Shown here: piece after piece, positions 4,355 to 39,623 of the stretch
How positions within the stretch are numbered: position 1 is the stretch's first letter
How the letters are laid out: each line of letters starts with the position of its first letter
From: Nitrospirota bacterium
Lineage (GTDB): Bacteria > Nitrospirota > Thermodesulfovibrionia > Thermodesulfovibrionales > UBA6898
Assembly: GCA_024275975.1 (NCBI GenBank)
Contig: JAJRYC010000026.1
Span: forward strand, 1 to 51,513
DNA length: 51,513 nt
Direction of reading: 5' to 3'
Notes under the pieces: generated by a model
Told to the model about the DNA's origin: nothing
The model's input: only the letters and a program-made list of their open reading frames with translations
Databases searched by the model: none
Translations under genes and position numbers: made by a program

Positions 4355-4695
4355 ATTCTGAGCACCTCTTTATTGATATCCCGCTTAAGTTTTCTTGAAA
4401 TCTCCTGCTTTGGGTTTAATCCCATCCTGTCAAGGAGGTCCCTTTCCATTTTCAGGGCGGGGAGCGCCTGTCTTTTCAGGTATTCCCTTGTGGAGGCATG
4501 ATCTTCTTCTGTCAGCTTGCCCATTTCGAACTCAAAATCTATATCCGATATCGCCTGGACGCCCTCCTTCTTCTCTGTCTGTATGCCGGCAAGCGTTCCT
4601 TCGCTCACAAAAGGCCAGTAATTCTCACCTGCGAGCGGAAGAAGGATATAGGCGAGAGATGCTGAAATCAGAATGAAAAAGAGTATAACCATCAT
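4330..4695 (-). CDS. CcmI-like N-terminal domain protein
   Basis: The 121-residue protein has an N-terminal membrane helix and a short periplasmic or cytoplasmic segment with 'DFEFEMGKLTEEDHASTREYLKRQA'-type spacing. This resembles the first cytoplasmic segment of CcmI and related short proteins ('.DF..GKLSEEDY..LR..YE.'). CcmI holds apocytochrome c for haem ligation. The C-terminal TPR part of classical CcmI is absent. It overlaps ccmF by 4 bp. The call is moderate because the region of similarity is short. Confidence 0.62.
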   Translation of the reverse strand: MMVILFFILISASLAYILLPLAGENYWPFVSEGTLAGIQTEKKEGVQAISDIDFEFEMGKLTEEDHASTREYLKRQALPALKMERDLLDRMGLNPKQEISRKLKRDINKEVLRICGKKLSS

Positions 4696-6695
4696 TCAAC
4701 TCCTGTCGCTTTCAGGCGCATAATAACTTCTTTCTCGATAACATCAATCCCATCCTCTCTCCTCCTTGTGGGCAGGACCGCCCAGACAATGCCGAAGAGG
4801 ACAACACCGGTGCCTGTCCATATCCATGAGAGGAGAGGGTTTATCACCACCGTCAAGGTGATGGAGCCGTCACCGTTCCAGCCGCCCAGGATCAGGTAAA
4901 GATCTTCAGAGATGCTGCTCATTATGGCGACTTCCGTGGTCGGCTCCTGTTTTTTGTAAAACCTCTTCTCGGGCTTCAGCGTGCCTTTAAACTCCCCGGA
5001 TTTATAAACCTCTATCAGTGAGCCTACACTTTCATAATTCCATCTGTCGAGATTTGTCAGATCCACATATTTCAACCGGTAGTTTTTTACCGTAACCTCC
5101 TGCCCCTTTACCAGGCCGAAGTCTTCCTTGTACTGATAATAACCGTAACTTGCCAGCCCCAGGACTATAAAAACCATGCCGATATGGACAATGAAGCCTC
5201 CGTACCTCCTCCTGTTTATGCTGACAAGACGCCGGAATGACGCGAGCCACCCTCTGCCGTGATTTTTCACCCCGGCCTTTGTGCCGAGATAAAACTCTCT
5301 CATCAGCGTAACTATGACAAATACCGAAAGGGAATAGAAAAAAATGGGCATAAATTCCCTGATACCTGAAATATATAAAATGGGCAGAGATACTGTTGTC
5401 AATGAGAGGGGAACCACCAGGTTTTTTAATATTCCCTTTGAAGAGGTCTTGCGCCATCCAAGAAGCGGACTCACCCCCATCAGCAGGAGAAGCAGCAGAA
5501 ATAACGGCGAATTAATTGTATTAAAGAAAGGGGGACCGACCGAGATCTTTACGCCTTTTACGGCCTCGGAGATCAGGGGGAAAATTGTTCCCCAGAAAGT
5601 CGCGAAACAGATACCGACAAAGATTATGTTGTTGTACAGGAATGTGCTTTCCCTTGAGAGAAACGCCTCGATCCTCGGGTTTTTTTCCTTCAACTGATCA
5701 TATCTTGTCCATATAAGATAAATCCCGGCAGCCAGGGTCACAAACAAAAAACCCAGAAAGACAAAACCAACCGGTGACTGGCCAAAGGCATGGACGGAAG
5801 AAATAATCCCGCTTCTGGTTATAAAAGTACCGAATATACACAAAGAAAAGGTGAGCAGGATCAGGACGAGGTTCCATATCTTGAGCATTCCCCTCTTCTC
5901 CTGAATAATAACGGAGTGAAGAAAGGCTGTTGCCGTAAGCCATGGCATGAAAGAGGAATTTTCAACCGGGTCCCATGCCCAGACGCCCCCCCATCCAAGC
6001 TCTTTATAAGCCCACCAACCCCCGAAGATTATGCCCAGGGTCAGGAATACCCACGAAAACAGTATCCAGGCCCTTGTCTTCTTTATCCACCAGTCGCCGA
6101 GGTCCCCCATCACAAGCGCCGCCATGGCAAAGGCAAAGGGGACGGTAAAACCCACATATCCAAGATAAAGTGTCGGCGGGTGAAAAACCATGCCCGGATT
6201 CTGCAGCATGGGATTGAGGCCATTGCCGTCACTGCGGAATATTGTGGCCAGTTCAAAAGGCGGGGTGACAAAATTAAGAAGGACGAGAAAAAAGATGAGC
6301 GTGAGGTTTAAAAACACAAGAACATATGGAAGGAACAGAGTGTTCAGGTTTTTTTCATCACGTTTAACGGTAATAAAAGTAAACAGTGAGAGCAGCCATC
6401 CCCAGAATAGGAGAGAGCCTTTCTGCCCGGCCCACAACCCGGTTATCTTATAAAAGATCGGCAGGCTCCTCTCGGAATATGACGCAACATATTCAATCCT
6501 GAAGTCGTCCGTGATAAAAGCATAGATAAGAATGAAAGTAGCGAATGTCAGAAAGGCAAAGATTGTTTTCGCCCCCCTGTATGACAGATCAATAAACCTT
6601 CCGTCCTTTTTTCTGATGCCGACTGTTAATCCGATTGCAACGAAAATTGCGAGAACCAGGGAAAAGAGCAGTGAGTATCTTCCAAAATCCATCAT
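4692..6695 (-). CDS. ccmF: CcmF haem lyase subunit
   Basis: The 667-residue polytopic membrane protein carries the CcmF haem-handling motif 'WGGVWAWDPVENSSFMPWL' and the upstream 'GLWAGQKGSLLFWGW' segment. CcmF works with CcmH-type proteins at the periplasmic face to attach haem from CcmE to the CxxCH motifs of apocytochromes c. The length and the large C-terminal periplasmic loop are typical. It overlaps ccmE upstream and the CcmI-like gene downstream by 4 bp each. Two adjacent ATGs are possible at the start, and I used the first. Confidence 0.96.
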   Translation of the reverse strand: MMDFGRYSLLFSLVLAIFVAIGLTVGIRKKDGRFIDLSYRGAKTIFAFLTFATFILIYAFITDDFRIEYVASYSERSLPIFYKITGLWAGQKGSLLFWGWLLSLFTFITVKRDEKNLNTLFLPYVLVFLNLTLIFFLVLLNFVTPPFELATIFRSDGNGLNPMLQNPGMVFHPPTLYLGYVGFTVPFAFAMAALVMGDLGDWWIKKTRAWILFSWVFLTLGIIFGGWWAYKELGWGGVWAWDPVENSSFMPWLTATAFLHSVIIQEKRGMLKIWNLVLILLTFSLCIFGTFITRSGIISSVHAFGQSPVGFVFLGFLFVTLAAGIYLIWTRYDQLKEKNPRIEAFLSRESTFLYNNIIFVGICFATFWGTIFPLISEAVKGVKISVGPPFFNTINSPLFLLLLLLMGVSPLLGWRKTSSKGILKNLVVPLSLTTVSLPILYISGIREFMPIFFYSLSVFVIVTLMREFYLGTKAGVKNHGRGWLASFRRLVSINRRRYGGFIVHIGMVFIVLGLASYGYYQYKEDFGLVKGQEVTVKNYRLKYVDLTNLDRWNYESVGSLIEVYKSGEFKGTLKPEKRFYKKQEPTTEVAIMSSISEDLYLILGGWNGDGSITLTVVINPLLSWIWTGTGVVLFGIVWAVLPTRRREDGIDVIEKEVIMRLKATGVE

Positions 6696-7111
6696 ACTTC
6701 GCCCCCCTTCTTTTCATACTTTGAAGGGCACTTAACAAGAAGCTTTTTTGCTTCAAATACACCTTTTTCCCTGTTGTAGGGACCTTCAGCCACAAGGGTG
6801 ACGCCTTCCTGTTCGAGCATGTCCGGCGGTGATCCTCTATATACGACATTCAGCTTCGGTGCATCTTCCAGATCTTTATCTTTCAGGTCAAAGCTGAGAT
6901 TCAGTGTGTCGGTGTTATAATTCAGACTGCCCGGGATAATCCTGCCGTTGACCCTGACTTTCCCATCTCCCATATCATCAAGCCTTGCGAAGAATTCCGA
7001 GACCTCGAGATAATACATACTGCCTTCCTTCATCCCGAGAAATCCCAGATAGATGAAAGCAAATAAAATTAAAATCACCGAGAAAACTATCGTGGCCTGT
7101 CTACCTCTCAT
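6692..7111 (-). CDS. ccmE: CcmE haem chaperone, cysteine (CxxxY) type
   Basis: CcmE is the periplasmic haem chaperone. The 139-residue protein has one N-terminal membrane anchor and the OB-fold body ('KVRVNGRIIPGSL', 'VVYRGSPPDML', 'VTLVAEGPY'). The usual haem-binding histidine of the HxxxY motif is replaced: Cys128 and Tyr132 form CPSKY. This Cys variant is known from Desulfovibrio, archaea and related groups, in the System I* described for them. It overlaps the CcmG-like gene by 11 bp and ccmF by 4 bp. Confidence 0.94.
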   Translation of the reverse strand: MRGRQATIVFSVILILFAFIYLGFLGMKEGSMYYLEVSEFFARLDDMGDGKVRVNGRIIPGSLNYNTDTLNLSFDLKDKDLEDAPKLNVVYRGSPPDMLEQEGVTLVAEGPYNREKGVFEAKKLLVKCPSKYEKKGGEV

Positions 7112-7685
7112 TTTCCGTCTCCATATCCGGTTCTTCCGTCAGGCCCCTTATCAGCGCCTGCTTTTTCGGGTCTGTCCAGTTGCCAGGCCCGATCTCAACA
7201 AAGGCGACCCTGCCTTTTTTATCGATTATGAAAGATTCTGGTACGCCGGTTGTGCCGTAAAGCAGCTGGATCGACCCCGTTGTATCCAGAAGCGCCTGGA
7301 ATGTGTAGCGGTTTTTCTCCATATACGGAGCAACCGCCTTTTTGCCGGCAGCGTCTATGCTTACAGCCAGCATCTCAAAGTCGTCTCCCCTGAACTTCTC
7401 ATATAGTCTCTGCAGACCGGGCAGTTCATCTCTGCACGAGGGACACCATGTCGCCCAGATATTCAGGAAGAGGACCTTTTTCCCGTAGAAATCCGACAGA
7501 GAAACTTCTTTTCCTTCAAGATCTACAAATGTAAGATCCCTTGCCTGCTCTCCTATTACCGGTCGCGGTTTTCTCTCTCTCCCGTCCTGCTGCCCGTTCA
7601 ACGCCACTATTACAATCACCGCGCCTAAAATAACAATCGGCAGCCAGAGTAAAAATTTTAACAGATTTTTCATCACAAACTCCAT
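7101..7685 (-). CDS. ccmG: Membrane-anchored thioredoxin-like protein (CcmG/ResA type)
   Basis: The 194-residue protein has an N-terminal membrane helix (about residues 8-29) and a TlpA/ResA-like thioredoxin fold. The active site is WCPSC (Cys81, Cys84) and the cis-Pro loop reads 'GTTGVPESFIID'. Such proteins reduce the CxxCH cysteines of apocytochromes before haem attachment. It lies 6 bp after ccmH and overlaps ccmE. A start at Met5 is also possible. CcmG and ResA cannot be separated by sequence alone here, and the ccm context favours CcmG. Confidence 0.9.
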   Translation of the reverse strand: MEFVMKNLLKFLLWLPIVILGAVIVIVALNGQQDGRERKPRPVIGEQARDLTFVDLEGKEVSLSDFYGKKVLFLNIWATWCPSCRDELPGLQRLYEKFRGDDFEMLAVSIDAAGKKAVAPYMEKNRYTFQALLDTTGSIQLLYGTTGVPESFIIDKKGRVAFVEIGPGNWTDPKKQALIRGLTEEPDMETENER

Positions 7686-7691
7686 TTCATG

Positions 7692-8192
7692 CTATTCACC
7701 ATCCCCGATCCTGCGCACCTCATCTTCGAGAAGCGTTTCCAGCTCCGGATTAATAGCATCCTGCACCGTCTCTTGCCGACCGGATTTCCTGCGCCACAGA
7801 ATAAGAAAAACCCCTGCTATCAAAAACAGATCGAACAGCAGGAAATACGGAAACCACCATGCAACAAAATAAAAACCCTTCTTTGACGGCTGCGCCAGCA
7901 CTTTCGGTCCGTAAACGTCTTCAAAATAAGCCAGAATCGATTCTCCGCTTTCACCCTTTGCCAGCCTATCCTTTATAAGCTCTTTCATCTGCTGTGCCTG
8001 GGCGGATGGACAGTTTGTAAGCGTGTAGACATAATCACACCCAGGGCTCATGATGAGGTCCGTAACTTTTTCAAGCTCCATCCGCGATACATCCTTGCCG
8101 TAAGATGTGTTGAATGTCAGCAACAGGATACAGGTCATCAGGAGGAATATCTTCCCGTGAATCTTCTTTTTATTAACCTCAATTATCCGCAT
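7692..8192 (-). CDS. ccmH: CcmH-family protein with a non-standard cysteine motif
   Basis: CcmH-family proteins are thiol-reducing partners of CcmF in haem ligation. The 166-residue protein has a signal peptide, a helical domain and one C-terminal membrane helix. The family C-terminus is clear: 'YFEDVYGPKVLAQPSKKGFYFVAWW'. The usual LRCxxCQ motif is absent. In its place is 'MSPGCDYVYTLTNCPSAQA', with Cys52 and Cys61 (CX8C). It is the first gene of the ccm operon, 6 bp before the CcmG-like gene. Confidence 0.85.
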   Translation of the reverse strand: MRIIEVNKKKIHGKIFLLMTCILLLTFNTSYGKDVSRMELEKVTDLIMSPGCDYVYTLTNCPSAQAQQMKELIKDRLAKGESGESILAYFEDVYGPKVLAQPSKKGFYFVAWWFPYFLLFDLFLIAGVFLILWRRKSGRQETVQDAINPELETLLEDEVRRIGDGE

Positions 8193-8267: not shown

Positions 8268-10226
8268 TCAGACCAACTTAACTCTTGTTAATCTCATGGC
8301 GTTTAATATTACCGTAATGGTTAATCCCATATCTCCCACGGCCACGGCGACCCATAAATTAATCATACCCAGCAATGCCATTATTGTAAGGCTTCCCTTA
8401 ACAAGGATCGAAAGGGACACATTCTGCCTTACAACTTGCATGGTCTTTCTGCTGAGATGCATGACGTACTCAATTTTACTTAAGTCATCGTGCATCAGCG
8501 CCACGTTCGCGGTTTCTATCGCAATGTCGGTGCCGGCAGCGCCCATGGCTATTCCAACGTTGGCCGCGGCAAGGGCTGGGGCGTCGTTTATGCCGTCGCC
8601 GACCATTGCTACAGAGCCGTATCTGCCGGCAAGCTTTTCAATAATCTCTATCTTGTCGTCGGGCAATAGTTGAGCGTGGTATTCATCGATACCGATTTTT
8701 TCCGCTAATAACCCGGCGACCCTTTTATTGTCCCCTGTAAGCATTTCAGTTCTGATGTTTAATTTTTTGAGCCGGGATATTATATCAGGGGCATTGTCCC
8801 TGACCCTGTCACCCAGTGCAATAACCCCGATCGCCCTCTCCTCATCGGAGATAAAAACAGCTGTCTTGCCCTCCAGTTCAAATTGTGACAACTCCATTGG
8901 AAGATCCATGGACAAGCCCTCAAAGAGGTTTTTTGCGCCCGCATAATACTTTCTGCCGTTGATCCGGGCTTCCAGCCCCTTGCCCTTTATCGCACTGAAC
9001 CTCTCGAGAGCTTTAAATTTTATATTTTCTTTGCGCGCTGCTTTAAGGACCGCTTTTGCGATAGGGTGTTCCGACCGGGATTCGAGAGATGCGGCTAAAG
9101 AAAGCACTTCTTCCGTGGAGTGGCCGTTGAAACCGACGATGTCCGTCACTTCCAGTCTGCCTTTAGTCAAAGTACCTGTTTTGTCGAATGCGACGGCCTT
9201 GACCCTGCTCAGCTCTTCCAGGTAAGTCGCCCCTTTTATTAATACGCCGTGTCTGGCGGAACCGGTCAATGCCGAGACCATGGCGACCGGTGTTGAGATG
9301 GCCAGGGCGCATGGACAGGAGACCACCAGCAGCACCAGCGCCCGGTAAAACCAGACCTCCCATGAATAGCCCAGAATAAAAGTTGGGACAAGAAAGGCCG
9401 CTAATGCCATGGCTATGACGATCGGCGTATAATAGGCGGCGAATTTATCTATGAATTTCTCGGTGTTTGATTTTTTTCTCTCGGCCTCTTCAACCAGCTT
9501 GACGATCCTGGAAAGGACAGTGTCTCCGGCTTTCTTCGTCACCTCCAGTTCAAGATAACCTTCCTCGTTCATCGTGCCCGCGTAAACTTCATCACCTGTT
9601 GTCTTTTCCACTGGGAGCGACTCACCTGTTATGGGCGACTCATTTATGGATGAATGGCCGGTCAGGACTTTTCCATCCAGCGGAATTTTTTCTCCGGGAC
9701 GGATGACGATTGTATCTCCAGGCCTGATTTCGTGCACATGCAGTTCGATCTCTTTATCTTCCCTCTTTACCCGCGCCGTTTCAGGAGCGAGTTTCAGCAG
9801 CCGGCTGATCGATTTTTTGGCATTATCCGCGGCATACTCTTCCAGTGTTTCCGCTATAAAAAAAAGAAATATTACCGCCGCGCCTTCTTCCCCGTGTCCG
9901 ATAAAAAAAGATCCGAAGGCCGCAAGCGCTATAAGACAGTTCATGTCCAGTCGCCGCCGCAGTATGGAACGCGCTGCCTTTTTCAGGATTTCCCTGCCGG
10001 CGACCGCAATTACCGAAACAAAGACAATCTGCGCGATAATATTCAGTGGCGTAAAAAATTCCAGCGCCAGTCCCGCCAGCAGAAGGGTCAGCGCGATACC
10101 ACCGGTTATTAATTGCCGGCGTCTCCAGAGTAGCGGTTTTTCCACAAGGAAACCGCCCGCGCCGCAGGCACAGCTCTTTTCTTCCCCGCACGTGTCATTC
10201 AACATCTGTAGTTTTGTGTTTTGCAT
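8268..10226 (-). CDS. Zn/Cd/Pb-type heavy-metal P1B-ATPase
   Basis: The 652-residue transporter has all the P-type ATPase elements. These are the metal-site CPC in helix 6 (residues 304-306), the phosphorylated Asp348 in DKTGT, the TGES actuator loop, the 'SEHPIA' His-Pro of P1B pumps and 'GDGINDAPALAAANVGIAMG'. The C-terminal 'VGDMGLTITVILNAMRL' segment fits the ZntA/CadA (P1B-2) group. There is no N-terminal HMA domain, only a short Cys-rich stretch (CGEEKSCACG) that may bind metal. It likely exports zinc, cadmium or lead to the periplasm. It follows the ArsR gene by about 115 bp and is probably co-transcribed with it. Confidence 0.93.
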   Translation of the reverse strand: MQNTKLQMLNDTCGEEKSCACGAGGFLVEKPLLWRRRQLITGGIALTLLLAGLALEFFTPLNIIAQIVFVSVIAVAGREILKKAARSILRRRLDMNCLIALAAFGSFFIGHGEEGAAVIFLFFIAETLEEYAADNAKKSISRLLKLAPETARVKREDKEIELHVHEIRPGDTIVIRPGEKIPLDGKVLTGHSSINESPITGESLPVEKTTGDEVYAGTMNEEGYLELEVTKKAGDTVLSRIVKLVEEAERKKSNTEKFIDKFAAYYTPIVIAMALAAFLVPTFILGYSWEVWFYRALVLLVVSCPCALAISTPVAMVSALTGSARHGVLIKGATYLEELSRVKAVAFDKTGTLTKGRLEVTDIVGFNGHSTEEVLSLAASLESRSEHPIAKAVLKAARKENIKFKALERFSAIKGKGLEARINGRKYYAGAKNLFEGLSMDLPMELSQFELEGKTAVFISDEERAIGVIALGDRVRDNAPDIISRLKKLNIRTEMLTGDNKRVAGLLAEKIGIDEYHAQLLPDDKIEIIEKLAGRYGSVAMVGDGINDAPALAAANVGIAMGAAGTDIAIETANVALMHDDLSKIEYVMHLSRKTMQVVRQNVSLSILVKGSLTIMALLGMINLWVAVAVGDMGLTITVILNAMRLTRVKLV

Positions 10227-10340: not shown

Positions 10341-10694
10341 TCATTCCCTTACATGTTTTAAGCCTTCATTAAACAACCCGTTAATATGCCTGTCATCCAG
10401 TGAGTAATAAACCCTCTTCGCCTCTTTCCTGAATTTAACCAGCCGCATGTTCCTTAAAATTCTCAGCTGGTGGGAAACAGCGGAGATACTGCTTCCCAGG
10501 ATGCTTGATATATCGCATACGCAGAGTTCTTCCTTCGTCAGGGCGTATATTATCTTCAGCCGTGTAGTGTCCGACAATATGCCGAAGATTTCCGTCAGAT
10601 GCAATGCGTCCTTATCAGAAAGCATCGCTTTTTTAACGACCTCAACCTTCGTCGTATCTACTGATTTAACTTCACATACATCCTGCTGTTTCAT
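10341..10694 (-). CDS. ArsR/SmtB-family metal-sensing repressor
   Basis: The 117-residue winged-helix protein has the ArsR fold and an 'ELCVCDISSILGSSISAVSHQLRILR' recognition region. The ELCVCD site in helix 3 is the classic metal-binding motif of ArsR, CadC and SmtB sensors. The first possible start (TTG at 10733) lies inside the operator and -10 region. I therefore chose the ATG at 10694, which has an AGAGG ribosome binding site just upstream. It would repress itself and the P-type ATPase until metal binds. Confidence 0.92.
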   Translation of the reverse strand: MKQQDVCEVKSVDTTKVEVVKKAMLSDKDALHLTEIFGILSDTTRLKIIYALTKEELCVCDISSILGSSISAVSHQLRILRNMRLVKFRKEAKRVYYSLDDRHINGLFNEGLKHVRE

Positions 10695-10713
10695 TCGCCT
10701 CTCAACCCCCTTG

Positions 10714-10737
10714 ATAGTTGAACACTTGTTCAACTAT
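10714..10737. promoter_or_regulatory. ArsR/SmtB-type operator, perfect 11-2-11 palindrome
   Basis: Half-sites ATAGTTGAACA and TGTTCAACTAT flank a 2-bp centre and match perfectly. The core TGAACA-N2-TGTTCA is the established SmtB/CadC/CzrA operator core. The site overlaps the -10 element and lies 20 bp upstream of the repressor start. Metal-controlled autoregulation follows directly from this arrangement. Confidence 0.9.
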
Positions 10738-10888: not shown

Positions 10889-12067
10889 ATGAAACTCAGA
10901 GTTATATTTATACATATCCTCATGCAGCTACTTCTGTTATCAGTCGTGGCGTACGGACAGGAAGGAAGAATCAACATTGTCTACACCGGCGACATGGATG
11001 GTGAGCTCGAACCCTGCGGCTGTTCACCAAAAACCGATTTTGGCGGAGTAGCAAGGATATCAGGCTATCTGGCTGAACATAAAAATGAACTCGCTCCATA
11101 TATCCTGTTAGACTCGGGCAATTTTTCAGACAAGGATACGCCTCAGGGAAGGCTGAAGGCTGCGGCCATGCTGAAATCCTTCAGCCTTATGAAATATGAT
11201 GCAGTGGCTTTGTCAGCCAGGGAAGAGATATTGCCGGATGATTTCCTCCGGCCGCTTCTGAAAGAATATAAAGTCCCTGTTGTTTCCACCCTGCCCGCAT
11301 ACAGTCAATCGGTTGCAATTGAGCGGGGGGGCTTTAAAATAAATGTGAGCACTGGACCCGGAAGCTACCGTAAGGATATGCTGAATATCTTTCTGACCGG
11401 CCTTTCGATCCCCGAAGCAAAGCTTATAACCGGATGGGATGTTATAATCAGTTCATCAGGCGAAATACTCGATGTCCCACTGAAAGTCAACAATACAATT
11501 ATTATATCGGGATATCCAAAGGGAAAGAAACTGGGTATTTTAACCGTTCAGACCGACAGTACCGGAAAGATTCTGGAATTTCAGCACAGCTGGCAATCTC
11601 TCGGCACTGATATCAGGGAAGATAAAAGTATTCGTAATATTCTGAACGAGTATGACATGAAAGTCGCCCGGCTGTTAAAAGAGGCGGAAAGGCCTTTGAC
11701 TGGAACAACATATCTTGGCGTCTCAAAGTGCGCGGAATGTCATCAGCCCTTTGCGGAAAGCTGGCAAAAAACGCGCCACGCCAAGGCATTTTCGAGTCTG
11801 GAACAGGCCGGTAAATCAGCTGATCCCGAATGTCTGGAGTGTCACACTGCAGGGTTTGGGGAAGAAGGGGGATTTTTCAGCATTGAGACAACGCCGGGAC
11901 TTTCAAATGTACAATGTGAAGTCTGTCATGGATTGGACAGAGAGCACCTGTCGGACTATTCCCGGCCCATGAAGCCTGTGACAGAGGCTGTCTGCCTGAA
12001 ATGTCATACCGAAAGCAGCAGCCCCGACTTCAATTATCAGCTTTATCTTGAAAAGATCAAACATTAA
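10889..12067 (+). CDS. Exported UshA-like domain fused to a tetraheme cytochrome c domain
   Basis: The 392-residue protein has a signal peptide (about 1-22). The N-terminal domain resembles calcineurin/UshA-type metallophosphoesterase relatives: 'VYTGDMDGELEPCGCSP..DFGGVARISGYL', then 'ILLDSGNFS'. The C-terminal region carries four c-type haem motifs: CAECH (281-285), CLECH (315-319), CEVCH (343-347) and CLKCH (369-373). The catalytic His/Asn set of real 5'-nucleotidases is not evident, so phosphatase activity is doubtful. The Cys43-Gly-Cys45 pair looks like a redox or metal site. Some relatives of this N-domain are, from memory, selenoproteins at this site. It is periplasmic and probably takes part in electron transfer. 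It depends on the ccm operon in this window. Confidence 0.85.
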   Translation: MKLRVIFIHILMQLLLLSVVAYGQEGRINIVYTGDMDGELEPCGCSPKTDFGGVARISGYLAEHKNELAPYILLDSGNFSDKDTPQGRLKAAAMLKSFSLMKYDAVALSAREEILPDDFLRPLLKEYKVPVVSTLPAYSQSVAIERGGFKINVSTGPGSYRKDMLNIFLTGLSIPEAKLITGWDVIISSSGEILDVPLKVNNTIIISGYPKGKKLGILTVQTDSTGKILEFQHSWQSLGTDIREDKSIRNILNEYDMKVARLLKEAERPLTGTTYLGVSKCAECHQPFAESWQKTRHAKAFSSLEQAGKSADPECLECHTAGFGEEGGFFSIETTPGLSNVQCEVCHGLDREHLSDYSRPMKPVTEAVCLKCHTESSSPDFNYQLYLEKIKH

Positions 12068-12086: not shown

Positions 12087-12734
12087 ATGTTCATGAAAAA
12101 AATGTTTATGGCCCTGATATCATTCGCCCTGCTGCCCCTGCTTTTTTCCTGTAAGGCCAGCGAGCCCGAACCAACCGTCATAAAGGGAATTCATACTGTA
12201 TTGGAAGGAAAGCAGTTTGAATATGACGGCAAAACCGTCGAAATAATGGAGTTTCTGAGTTTCTCTTGCCACACCTGTTACGACTTTGAAAAATCCATCC
12301 CGGTGATAAAGGGGAACTTTCCTAAAAAAATCACATGGAAATTTGTCCCTGTTTACTGGGGGCGGAACGGCTCTTCCAAACCTGGTGAGGCTTACCTTTT
12401 GGCGGAAGAAGCCGGAAAGGGCGAAGAGATGAAGAAGGCGCTCTTTAACGCAAAAATGGTCCAGAAGAAAAATATCGCGGATCTTGACGTCCTTGAGAGT
12501 ATCGGCAATGAGATAGGTCTTGGTCCTGATTTCGGGAGCAGGCTCAGGGCGGGGGACAAGGCCAGTGGTGTTCAGGAGAACCTGAAGATGGCCGCGGCAT
12601 ACAAGATTGAGGAGACTCCCACCTTAATCATAGCCGGAAACATTGCGACAAATCCGCACGCGGTTGATCATAACATTGATGCTTTCAGGGATAATGTTAT
12701 AACGATTTTAAAGAGCATACTTACTAAGGAGTAA
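12087..12734 (+). CDS. DsbA-like thiol-disulfide lipoprotein
   Basis: The 215-residue product has a lipoprotein signal ending LLFSC (lipidated Cys22). A DsbA-like domain follows with active site CHTC (Cys61, Cys64), preceded by 'EIMEFLSFS', and a cis-Pro loop 'EETPTLIIAG'. It has a clear GGAGG ribosome binding site and starts 19 bp after the tetraheme gene. This suggests the pair is one operon and that it may help oxidise or reduce the many cysteines of its partner. The active-site dipeptide HT differs from DsbA's PH. Confidence 0.9.
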   Translation: MFMKKMFMALISFALLPLLFSCKASEPEPTVIKGIHTVLEGKQFEYDGKTVEIMEFLSFSCHTCYDFEKSIPVIKGNFPKKITWKFVPVYWGRNGSSKPGEAYLLAEEAGKGEEMKKALFNAKMVQKKNIADLDVLESIGNEIGLGPDFGSRLRAGDKASGVQENLKMAAAYKIEETPTLIIAGNIATNPHAVDHNIDAFRDNVITILKSILTKE

Positions 12735-20516: not shown

Positions 20517-22037
20517 ATGGATTTAAGTCAGAAAATTGATTCGGTAAAAAAAAATCTTGAGCCGACGTATTTTGGCTTTTTTCTGCTCAGGAGCATAGTC
20601 CTTGTAGGCGGGCTTGGATGGCTCTCATTCTCGACAATTCCACCGGAAGAAAGCATTGCCGTCCTTAAAATATACTTTTATTATCTTTTCTATACTCTGT
20701 TTTTGTACGGACTTATTTTCCTCTGGCCATGGAAAGTCAGGCGTCTATATGTCATAGGCCTATTATTTGACCTGCTTTTTGTCTTTCTGCTCGTAAGTGC
20801 CACTGGTGGATTTTACAGTGACTTTTATCTCGGCTTTTATCTTCTGACCGCTCTCCATACGTTTTACTACGGACTGAATTACGGCATAGTCCTTGCCTTT
20901 GCATCATCCCTGGTGTATCTCTTCGGGGGAAAGATGGACTTCGAAGTTCTGCAGTGGACCGATTTTATGTTAAGAATATCATTTCTGTTTCTGATGGCCG
21001 TTCCTCTCGGAATACTGTCCGACAAGCTAAAAAAAGATAAGATGCAGATAGAAGCGCTCAATCGTGAACTTGAAAAATCCATGGCTTCCCTGCGGCAGAC
21101 ACAGAAAAGACTTGTAGAGGTCGAAAAATTCTCCGCCTTAGGGAGATTGACGGCGGATGTCGCGCATGAAATCCGGAACCCGCTTACATCTATCGGTGGT
21201 TTTGCCAGAAGACTCCGGGAGAATCTTGCGGACGGCTCAAAGGAACGGATTTATGCCGACCTGATCGTTACCGAATCAATTAAATTAGAGCAGACATTAA
21301 GGGATGTCCTGATATTCTCAAGGGGGGCCGGGATACAGTGCGTGCTTCTCACAGCGGAGAGCGTTATTGATTAATACCTTGACGTGGCGGTTATTTTAAA
21401 GAGTACCGATGTCAGTATAAAAAAAGAATACGGTGCCGCCCCGTTAAAGGCCCTGATTGATAAAGAACAATTAAAGCAGGTCTTAAATAATCTCATTATA
21501 AATGCACTGGACGCCATGTCCGGGCAAGGACCTATCACACTGAGAACAAGGATAGAGCGCCTGAATGAGATTCAATATATTGTTATTGATGTCGAGGACA
21601 CCGGATCGGGGATACCGGATGATAAACTCGGCATAATTTTCGAGCCGTTTTATTCTACCAAAAGCATCGGCGCCGGTACCGGCCTTGGTCTGGCGATATG
21701 CAAAAAAATCATGGATGAACATAACGGATTAATAAAAGTCAGGAGCAAATTAAATGAAGGAAGTACATTCAGCCTATATTTTCCCCTTCAATCGGAAGAA
21801 GACAAAGACAAGATAAAATGCTGGCAATTCATGGAATGCGGCATCGAAAGCGACAGTGAAATGACATGCGGCGCTTATCCTGATTTCGGACGGATGTGCT
21901 GGGCTGTCGCCGGCACTTTCTGTGAAAAGAAGGTCCAGGGCAAATACGCCCAGAAAATAACCGACTGTAGTAAATGCGATTTCTTTCGGGCGCTGACTGC
22001 CGGAAAGTCCGGCCAGGCCCGCCTTTTAAAGTCATGA
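20517..22037 (+). pseudogene. Membrane sensor histidine kinase with an in-frame TAA and C-terminal two-CW-like domain
   Basis: The first part (285 residues) has several membrane helices, a coiled coil and the phosphoacceptor block 'LTADVAHEIRNPLTSIGGF' (His217). A single TAA (21372-21374) interrupts it. The same frame then continues with the HATPase domain ('VLNNLIINALDAMSG', 'DTGSGIPDDKLGIIFEPFYSTK', 'GTGLGLAICKKIMDEH'). A Cys-rich tail follows (CWQFMECG, then CGAYPDFGRMCWAVAGTFC, then CSKCDFF), like the two-CW domain. The stop is one base from GAA (Glu) and everything else is intact. If real, it separates the His-bearing half from the ATP-binding half, and a GTG at 21384 could restart translation. 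Confidence 0.85.
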
Positions 22038-37712: not shown

Positions 37713-39623
37713 CTATGGCTTGGGGCTTGCCTCCTTTATTATGCGTTCCACATCATCTCTGTCCAGAACCTCCTCTTTTATAAGAGCCCCTGCTAAATTA
37801 TCAAGGACATGCCTTTTATCTGCCAATATCTCTTCTGCCTTTGATTCTGCATCGGTTATTAACTTTCGTATCTCCTGGTCCATAAGCCATGTCATTTCCT
37901 CACTGAAACGTTTGGGCTGGGCAAGTTCTCTTCCTAAAAATGGATGTTCTTCTCCCCTTCCAAGGTTTAAAGGACCGACTTTATCACTCATACCCCACTG
38001 AGCTACCATCTTCTCTGCAAGAGAAGTCGCTTCTTTCAGATCATTCTGCGCGCCTGTACTCACGTCATTAAAGACGATCTTCTCAGCAACTCTTCCGGCA
38101 AGAGCTACGCTTAATTTGTCCATAAGGTACGCCTTGGGATAATAATGCCTGTCTTCTTCAGGCAGAAGCTGCGTTATCCCCATAGCCATTCCGCGCGGCA
38201 GGATGCTGACTTTGTGGATAGGGTCGGTATCAGGCAGTTCCGAGGCAGCAAGGGCATGTCCTGCCTCGTGGTAGGCTGTTATCCGTTTTTCCATATCGCT
38301 GATGGTTTCTTCTCTTACGGAACCCATCAGGATTTTATCCTTCGCCTCTTCAAAATCAGTCGTATCTATTCTGTCTTTTTTCTTTCTTACCGCAGTAAGG
38401 GCAGCCTAATTCGCGAGGTTTTCGAGATCAGCACCTGTCATACCGGGAGTCCCTTTTGCTATGCTCTCAAGGTCAATATCGTCCGCCAGTATCTTGTTCC
38501 TCACGTGGACATCGAGAATGGCTTTGCGGTCTTTCCACCCCGGCCTGTCAATAACGATAAGCCTGTCAAAACGGCCCGGCCTGAGAAGTGCGGGGTCAAG
38601 GACATCCGGCCTGTTTGTTGCCGCCAGAACAATTACTTCTTCGTGAGGCTCAAATCCATCAAGTTCACTTAAAAGCTGATTCAGCGTCTGTTCCCTTTCA
38701 TCATGTCCACCTCCAAGGCCTGTTCCACGGGTGCGCCCGACAGAATCAAGCTCGTCAATAAAAATTATACTCGGCTGAGAGGCTTTTGCCTTCTGGAACA
38801 TGTCCCTGACACGGGCGGCCCCTACCCCTACAAACATCTCTATAAACTCAGACGCACTGATGCTGTAAAAAGGAACACCTGCTTCACCTGCTACCGAGCG
38901 CGCAAGAAGAGTTTTCCCTGTGCCGGGAGGACCGACCAAAAGCACCCCCCTGGGGATTTTTGCCCCAAGTTTCCTGTACTCAGCAGGATTCCTCAGAAAC
39001 TCTACTGTTTCCCACAGTTCCTGTTTCACATTTTGCATCCCGGCCACATCCTTGAAAGTTATGGTGGATTTTCTGACATCATGAAGTTTTGCCTTGCTTG
39101 AACCGAAAGTGAAGAGCCCTCCGGGGCCTCCCTGAATCTGCCGTGACTTCCTCATTATGAACAACCAGATGCCGATAATCAAAACCCATGGCAGAATCCC
39201 GAATAAAAGCTTTTCAAAAAAGGAGACCTCCTCTGAAGGTTCAACATTTATAACTACATGCTTCTCTTCAAGTCTTGAAAGGAGTTTTTCGCCCTGGAAG
39301 GAAGGCAGAAAAGTGCGAAAGTATTTTACATCCGCGGTTTCTTTTTTACCCGGCGGACGTATTTTTATCTCTTTAACAAACTCCCCGCTGACCCGCAGAT
39401 TTTTTATTGTGACGGATTTTACGTTGTCGGAGTTAAGTTGTTCAATAAACCGGCTGTAATTAATCTCATACCGTTCAGGGACTTCAGCAGTAAAGAATTG
39501 TCCCCAGAAATATAAAAAAATGACAATGAGTAAAAGGGCGATACTAAATCTCCACTGAGGGCTTTTAATCTTGTCAGTTATACTTTTGCCATTATCATAT
39601 GGTGCGGAGGTCGAATCCTTCAT
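37713..39623 (-). pseudogene. ftsH: FtsH ATP-dependent zinc protease with an in-frame TAG
   Basis: The N-terminal part (405 residues) has a membrane region, a periplasmic domain, Walker A GPPGTGKT, Walker B '[11 protein letters not shown]', the SRH and '[12 protein letters not shown]'. TAG at 38406-38408 interrupts it. In the same frame the sequence then gives 'AALTAVRKKKDRID', 'AYHEAGHALAA' with the zinc site HEAGH, and the rest of the protease up to 'DRDDVERIIKEASPKP'. TAG is one base from GAG, and Glu is normal in the FtsH 'NL.NEAAL' block. The genome may have another FtsH. If the stop is real, an AAA-only fragment is made. Confidence 0.9.

Follow-up and report, generated by a model that had tools for sequence, protein, structure and literature searches.

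A 392-residue protein of a Nitrospirota bacterium joins a decayed 5'-nucleotidase-type domain, in which a CGC site is kept, to a tetrahaem cytochrome region, and its gene stands in an operon-like pair with a gene for a DsbA-like protein. The protein is a divergent Cys form of the described, functionally orphan NF041198 group and falls in a Cys clade of shortened, DsbA-coupled proteins; the DsbA pairing and the DsbA-like fusions reported below are new here for this family. We propose, as an evenly balanced judgement, that it acts as a periplasmic haem-wired thiol-disulfide oxidoreductase exchanging electrons with the DsbA-like partner. The gene lies in a stretch of 51,513 nucleotides (contig JAJRYC010000026.1), which was analysed as a whole and is called the window, and its features are collected in Table 1.

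Table 1. Features of the window around the UshA-like tetrahaem cytochrome gene
Feature	Coordinates	Strand	Basis
Cytochrome c maturation genes CcmF, CcmE, CcmG-like (redoxin), CcmH	4692..8192	-	Pfam
Heavy-metal (Cd/Zn/Pb-type) P-type ATPase	8268..10226	-	TIGR01525 639.4 bits, TIGR01512 547.2 bits, both above cut-off
ArsR/SmtB metalloregulator with ELCVCD; start more likely ATG at 10694	10341..10733	-	ORF, NCBIfam
24-bp palindrome ATAGTTGAACA-CT-TGTTCAACTAT, probable ArsR operator	10714..10737		sequence
UshA-like PCGC tetrahaem cytochrome, 392 aa, ATG start	10889..12067	+	ORF, Pfam, NCBIfam, AlphaFold
5'-nucleotidase-fold domain, residues 24-265, metal ligands lost	10958..11683	+	structure comparison, alignment
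C43-G44-C45, codons TGC GGC TGT; third is the TGA position in Sec-form relatives	11015..11023	+	sequence, alignment
Haem site 1, CAECH, residues 281-285	11729..11743	+	sequence, 54-row alignment
Haem site 2, CLECH, residues 315-319	11831..11845	+	sequence, 54-row alignment
Haem site 3, CEVCH, residues 343-347	11915..11929	+	sequence, 54-row alignment
Haem site 4, CLKCH, residues 369-373	11993..12007	+	sequence, 54-row alignment
DsbA-like putative lipoprotein, 215 aa; CHTC residues 61-64 (12267-12278)	12087..12734	+	ORF, Pfam

Domain make-up and loss of the hydrolase ligands

A scan of genome contigs gave 419 confirmed relatives, and the 80 loci among the matches listed come from many phyla. 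Two alignments were used: one of 20 rows, comprising the window protein, 16 same-phylum short forms (presumed Nitrospirota) and three long forms, and one of 54 rows, comprising the window protein and 53 of the 80 listed loci, the other 27 being set aside for length, truncation or redundancy. In the latter, 24 rows carry selenocysteine (U), which the aligner displayed as C. Loci L078 and L065 apparently lie on one contig of 45,282 bases, and L079 and L058 on another of 35,809 bases, and each pair was counted once in the locus counts.

The best NCBIfam match of the protein is NF041198, 'UshA-like (seleno)protein' (UshA_like_PCGU), which scores 202.9 bits against a cut-off of 275 and matches in two stretches, residues 225-384 to model positions 344-519 and the N-terminal part to positions 4-136. 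Short-form relatives also fall under this cut-off (L058, 221.2; L067, 209.5; L082, 200.0 bits). With NF041198 the protein shares the UshA-like domain, the PCG[C/U] motif and the C-terminal cytochrome region, while it differs in its score, in its shortened UshA domain and in the pairing of its gene with a DsbA-like gene. Separately, the same genome encodes on another contig (L002, contig C38) a 167-residue protein with four CxxCH that matches the haem half of NF041198, and short four-CxxCH proteins of this kind occur in many relatives.

The family is in print as UshA-like CxU selenoproteins (COG0737), in agreement with the selenocysteine link that the earlier note had drawn; in the portions of these sources available, selenoproteome tables have included it since 2008, with no function tested (PMC2398784, PMC9312934, PMC13188914). 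The 2008 survey, in its available text, excepts the UshA-like family from those with conserved Cys-based redox motifs, though it is tabulated as CxU (PMC2398784). No paper on the function of the UshA-like family or on a DsbA link was found in the literature searched, as far as its available text extends.

An UshA-like N-domain bearing a CGC and joined to four CxxCH sites had been read from the letters, and both halves of this description are borne out. C43-G44-C45 follows P42, the four CxxCH start at C281, C315, C343 and C369, and the tetrahaem part matches PF13435 (Cytochrome_C554) over residues 280-348 in Pfam (E 2.6e-19, 70.4 bits against a gathering score of 20.8). The solved structures matched in phmmer are cytochrome c554 and 5'-nucleotidases, the match to cytochrome c554 of Nitrosomonas (1bvb) having an E value of 1.4e-11. 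An AlphaFold model made from the 54-row alignment (mean pLDDT 91.1, pTM 0.87) aligns with 5'-nucleotidase 2z1a over 239 residues (Z 27.2, rmsd 2.4; the best Z for a 5'-nucleotidase) and with SoxB 2wdc at Z 24.8, and most structural alignments end near residue 265 or about 315. These matches to 5'-nucleotidases and SoxB indicate that the protein has retained the catalytic domain of UshA and that the tetrahaem region occupies the place of the UshA C-terminal domain. The four CxxCH are shared with cytochrome c554, in which, unlike here, the haem region is not fused to an UshA-like domain.

Although the catalytic-domain fold is that of UshA/CD73 5'-nucleotidases and SoxB, the N-side metal ligands are gone. 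The N-side di-metal ligand pattern of UshA/5'-nucleotidase enzymes, which we take to be DxH, GD and GNH and which is visible in the alignments, is replaced in the window protein by D35-M-D37, GN78 and SAR109-111. D, H, D and N occur jointly at these four columns in 0 of the 54 rows (D at 35 in 20, H at 37 in 2, D at 78 in 18, N at 110 in 0), and the earlier remark that obvious catalytic residues were lacking holds at these columns. An active phosphatase is ruled out for the window protein by this loss. At positions 171 and 190, where the window protein has G171 and S190, His is found in 21 and 20 of the 54 rows, respectively; these positions may be equivalents of the second-half His ligands of UshA, so that some relatives may bind metal there.

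The likeness to SoxB also bears on a very unlikely reading, in which the protein would be a SoxB/SoxYZ-like sulfur carrier whose CGC bears a persulfide or sulfane that is oxidised or reduced by the haems. Besides the fold, it could draw on the rhodanese and MauE/DoxX genes that, together with one for DUF1573, lie upstream of the Sec form L100. However, the SoxB model TIGR04486 scores 17.9 bits against a cut-off of 550, the metal ligands are lost, and no sox family was found among the Pfam-scanned neighbours, a small fraction of the full set. DUF1573 itself is fused to the family in L098 (Pfam) and L143 (by eye), and is encoded upstream in L106 as well as L100.

The CG[C/U] site and selenocysteine

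Conservation of the CGC in orthologues was the point that the earlier note had named beforehand as able to overturn its reading, and the site is kept. In the 20-row alignment, the CGC and all CxxCH residues are unchanged in every row. CG[C/U] is present in all 54 rows of the broader alignment, preceded by P in 50 of them, at a mean column identity of 22%. The 20 invariant columns, three of which are the motif itself, are C43, G44, C/U45, G52, G77, the twelve CxxCH positions, H297, V341 and H353; of these, H297 and H353 may act as distal haem ligands. Over the relatives among the matches listed, 78 of 80 have CG[C/U]; of the two without it, L142 is cut by a contig edge and L156 is a different, eight-haem protein.

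In 31 of the 80 relatives among the matches listed, the second motif codon is TGA, exactly at the position of C45, and none of these 31 loci has a further in-frame TGA downstream. The window gene, in contrast to the Sec forms of NF041198, has TGT and thus Cys at this codon, and the suggestion that it is the Cys version of a Sec-bearing site is upheld by these homologues. SelB scores above its cut-off in 24/24 genomes with a Sec form versus 10/26 with a Cys form (Fisher p = 1.2e-6), a comparison that took 24 of the 31 Sec loci and 26 of the 47 Cys loci and omitted L137, L141 and L144 of the 54-row alignment. A test for a SECIS hairpin in the 48 bases past the codon gave a mean z of -0.85 for 24 Sec loci versus -0.44 for 29 Cys loci (one-sided p = 0.063). 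In a tree from which the motif columns were left out, the window protein falls within a nine-row Cys clade (support 100/100). Four changes of the Sec/Cys label are required on this tree, so that the 31 Sec loci represent far fewer events.

The invariance of CG[C/U], the TGA codon in these relatives and the co-occurrence with SelB argue that the site is chemically used. A mere structural disulfide, or a remnant of the fold within a tetrahaem electron carrier, would be in keeping with the cysteines that CD73-type enzymes have in the same loop of the alignment; we consider it extremely improbable, since a Sec codon at the second position and a motif held invariant while the hydrolase site decays both speak against it.

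The genome of the window organism has SelB as well (371.4 bits against a cut-off of 242.25). It also holds a second DsbA-like gene (L158, minus strand of contig C46, 261-1106), in which one in-frame TGA, the only one, stands for the first cysteine of the CxxC (FEDFQ-U-PYC); the product is likely a selenoprotein DsbA. Judging from these genes, the organism seems to decode selenocysteine yet to place Cys in the window gene.

The DsbA-like partner and the direction of electron flow

The DsbA-like gene begins with an ATG 19 bases past the cytochrome stop codon, with AGGA ahead of it, and its product also has a TP and a lipobox-like FSC. Its best NCBIfam models are DsbA, at 50.1 and 34.5 bits, far under their cut-offs. 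This gene had been pointed out as a partner of the cytochrome, and the pairing proves to be conserved: a same-strand DsbA-like gene lies directly downstream in 16 of the 17 same-phylum short forms, a set that excludes L074, whose cytochrome is truncated. L070 is among the 16, and in L068 the gene is broken by N's, leaving a 132-residue fragment without a Pfam match whose sequence is still recognisable. The lone exception is L072, which has an FGE-sulfatase gene instead. A DsbA-like gene is also downstream in 7/7 further short forms (L080-L086) and in three Nitrospinota loci (L089, L090 and L092). CxxC and the TP of the cis-proline loop are kept in all 26 clustered DsbA-like partners, two of which are duplicates. 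Around most of the Sec forms and around the Cys forms of gammaproteobacteria, no DsbA neighbour was seen among the ORFs listed, lists that rest on a greedy ORF choice and may miss genes.

Moreover, nine relatives carry DsbA-like sequence within the same polypeptide (62 of the 80 listed loci were scanned with Pfam), namely L102, L112, L116, L119, L120, L125, L131, L145 and L148, in records labelled Poribacteria, Latescibacterota and Gemmatimonadota. All nine fused domains match PF01323 (DSBA) at E 1e-3 or better, clearly exceeding the gathering score in four and equalling it in one, and all nine show CPFG or CPYG instead of CxxC. The longer five fusions (L116, L119, L120, L131 and L145) hold an additional, later CxVC motif.

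In the proposed oxidoreductase, the dead 5'-nucleotidase domain would serve as a scaffold that displays P-C-G-C in the loop following its first strand, with the c554-like tetrahaem domain in place of the substrate-binding C-terminal domain of UshA. The CGC would cycle between dithiol and disulfide (in the CGU form, a selenenylsulfide) and would trade electrons both with the DsbA-like protein and with the four haems. For this proposal we infer the cell location, the thiol cycle, the contact with DsbA, the electron path and its direction. Against it stand the CPFG or CPYG of the fused domains, the many family members around which no DsbA neighbour was seen, the exception made for the UshA-like family in the 2008 survey, and the His residues that some relatives have at positions 171 and 190. 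The version favoured for the clade of the window protein would run from reduced DsbA through the CGC and the haems to the respiratory chain and replace DsbB or VKOR, a direction that we hold to be doubtful. The likeness to DsbB and VKOR would lie in this job only, i.e., in accepting electrons from DsbA-like thiols; unlike them, the protein carries haem and is predicted to have one N-terminal helix, and no homology was found.

DsbB and VKOR have no match in the window's own genome, which fits a DsbA-oxidising role, yet 37 of 54 non-carrier genomes also lack both. DsbB or VKOR occurs in 3 of 18 carriers, i.e., genomes found with a family gene (one of them, G225, with a fragment only), versus 17 of 54 non-carriers (p = 0.36), and replacement of DsbB/VKOR is thus without statistical support.

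Electrons may also run the other way, from quinol or low-potential cytochromes through the haems to CGC/CGU and on to a reductase or isomerase of the DsbA-like or CcmG-like kind. Apocytochrome or thiols damaged by metal would thereby stay reduced, a role in cytochrome maturation and repair. Two Sec forms, L134 and L110, are followed after about 40 bases by NapC/NirT-type multihaem genes, which suggests electrons arriving from quinol. Among the 17 same-phylum short forms, ResB-like genes are found in eight neighbourhoods and Ccm genes in two, and ResB and CcsA near L061 were confirmed by Pfam. Selenocysteine in general favours reduction, which would also suit such a flow. On the other hand, a DsbD/CcdA transmembrane protein is already encoded in 18/18 carriers, and the best models of the partner are those of DsbA, though far under cut-offs. 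On balance, this reductive role seems unlikely to us.

Neighbouring genes and meaning for the family

The heavy-metal P-type ATPase, found in 10 of the 17 same-phylum short-form neighbourhoods, and the divergent ArsR gene, which has palindromic operators both in the window and in L068, could point to a role in metal or metalloid defence. CGC/CGU would then bind or reduce soft metals or oxyanions outside the inner membrane, while the ATPase would export the metal and the ArsR/SmtB regulator, whose ELCVCD we take to be CadC-like, would sense it. We regard this as quite unlikely, since ArsR adjoins in only 4 of the 17, the palindrome is located at arsR, so that its control of the cytochrome gene is at best conjectural, and an unsystematic look by eye at the gene starts around Sec forms gave one efflux gene (RND-type, near L114).

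The palindrome core TTGAACA..TGTTCAA occurs once in the window. Among 20 upstream regions (19 loci and the window), a palindrome of this type with 8-base arms is found only in the window and L068, and looser copies were seen by eye upstream of L064 and L070. With the palindrome at arsR and such copies in 2/20 regions, a metal regulon is not established.

Elsewhere in the window, an FtsH-like protease recognised by eye lies in two minus-strand frames of 405 and 204 residues (38406-39623 and 37713-38327), representing either a broken gene or an assembly error. A sensor kinase, also recognised by eye, is split into adjacent plus-strand ORFs (20517-21374 and 21384-22037), possibly by a frameshift.

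Returning to the oxidoreductase proposal, disulfide chemistry outside the inner membrane might be coupled directly to c-type cytochromes, from DsbA-like thiols over CG[C/U] in the decayed phosphoesterase domain to the four haems, in place of or beside DsbB/VKOR. This novel route, which would take the form of paired genes in Nitrospirota and relatives and of a single polypeptide in the fusions, is a tentative suggestion that we hold to be possible rather than probable. The DsbA pairing and the fused domains provide a concrete, testable hypothesis for the UshA-like family. If true, such a coupling would assign a function to an orphan selenoprotein family and would link disulfide formation or repair directly to multihaem respiration.
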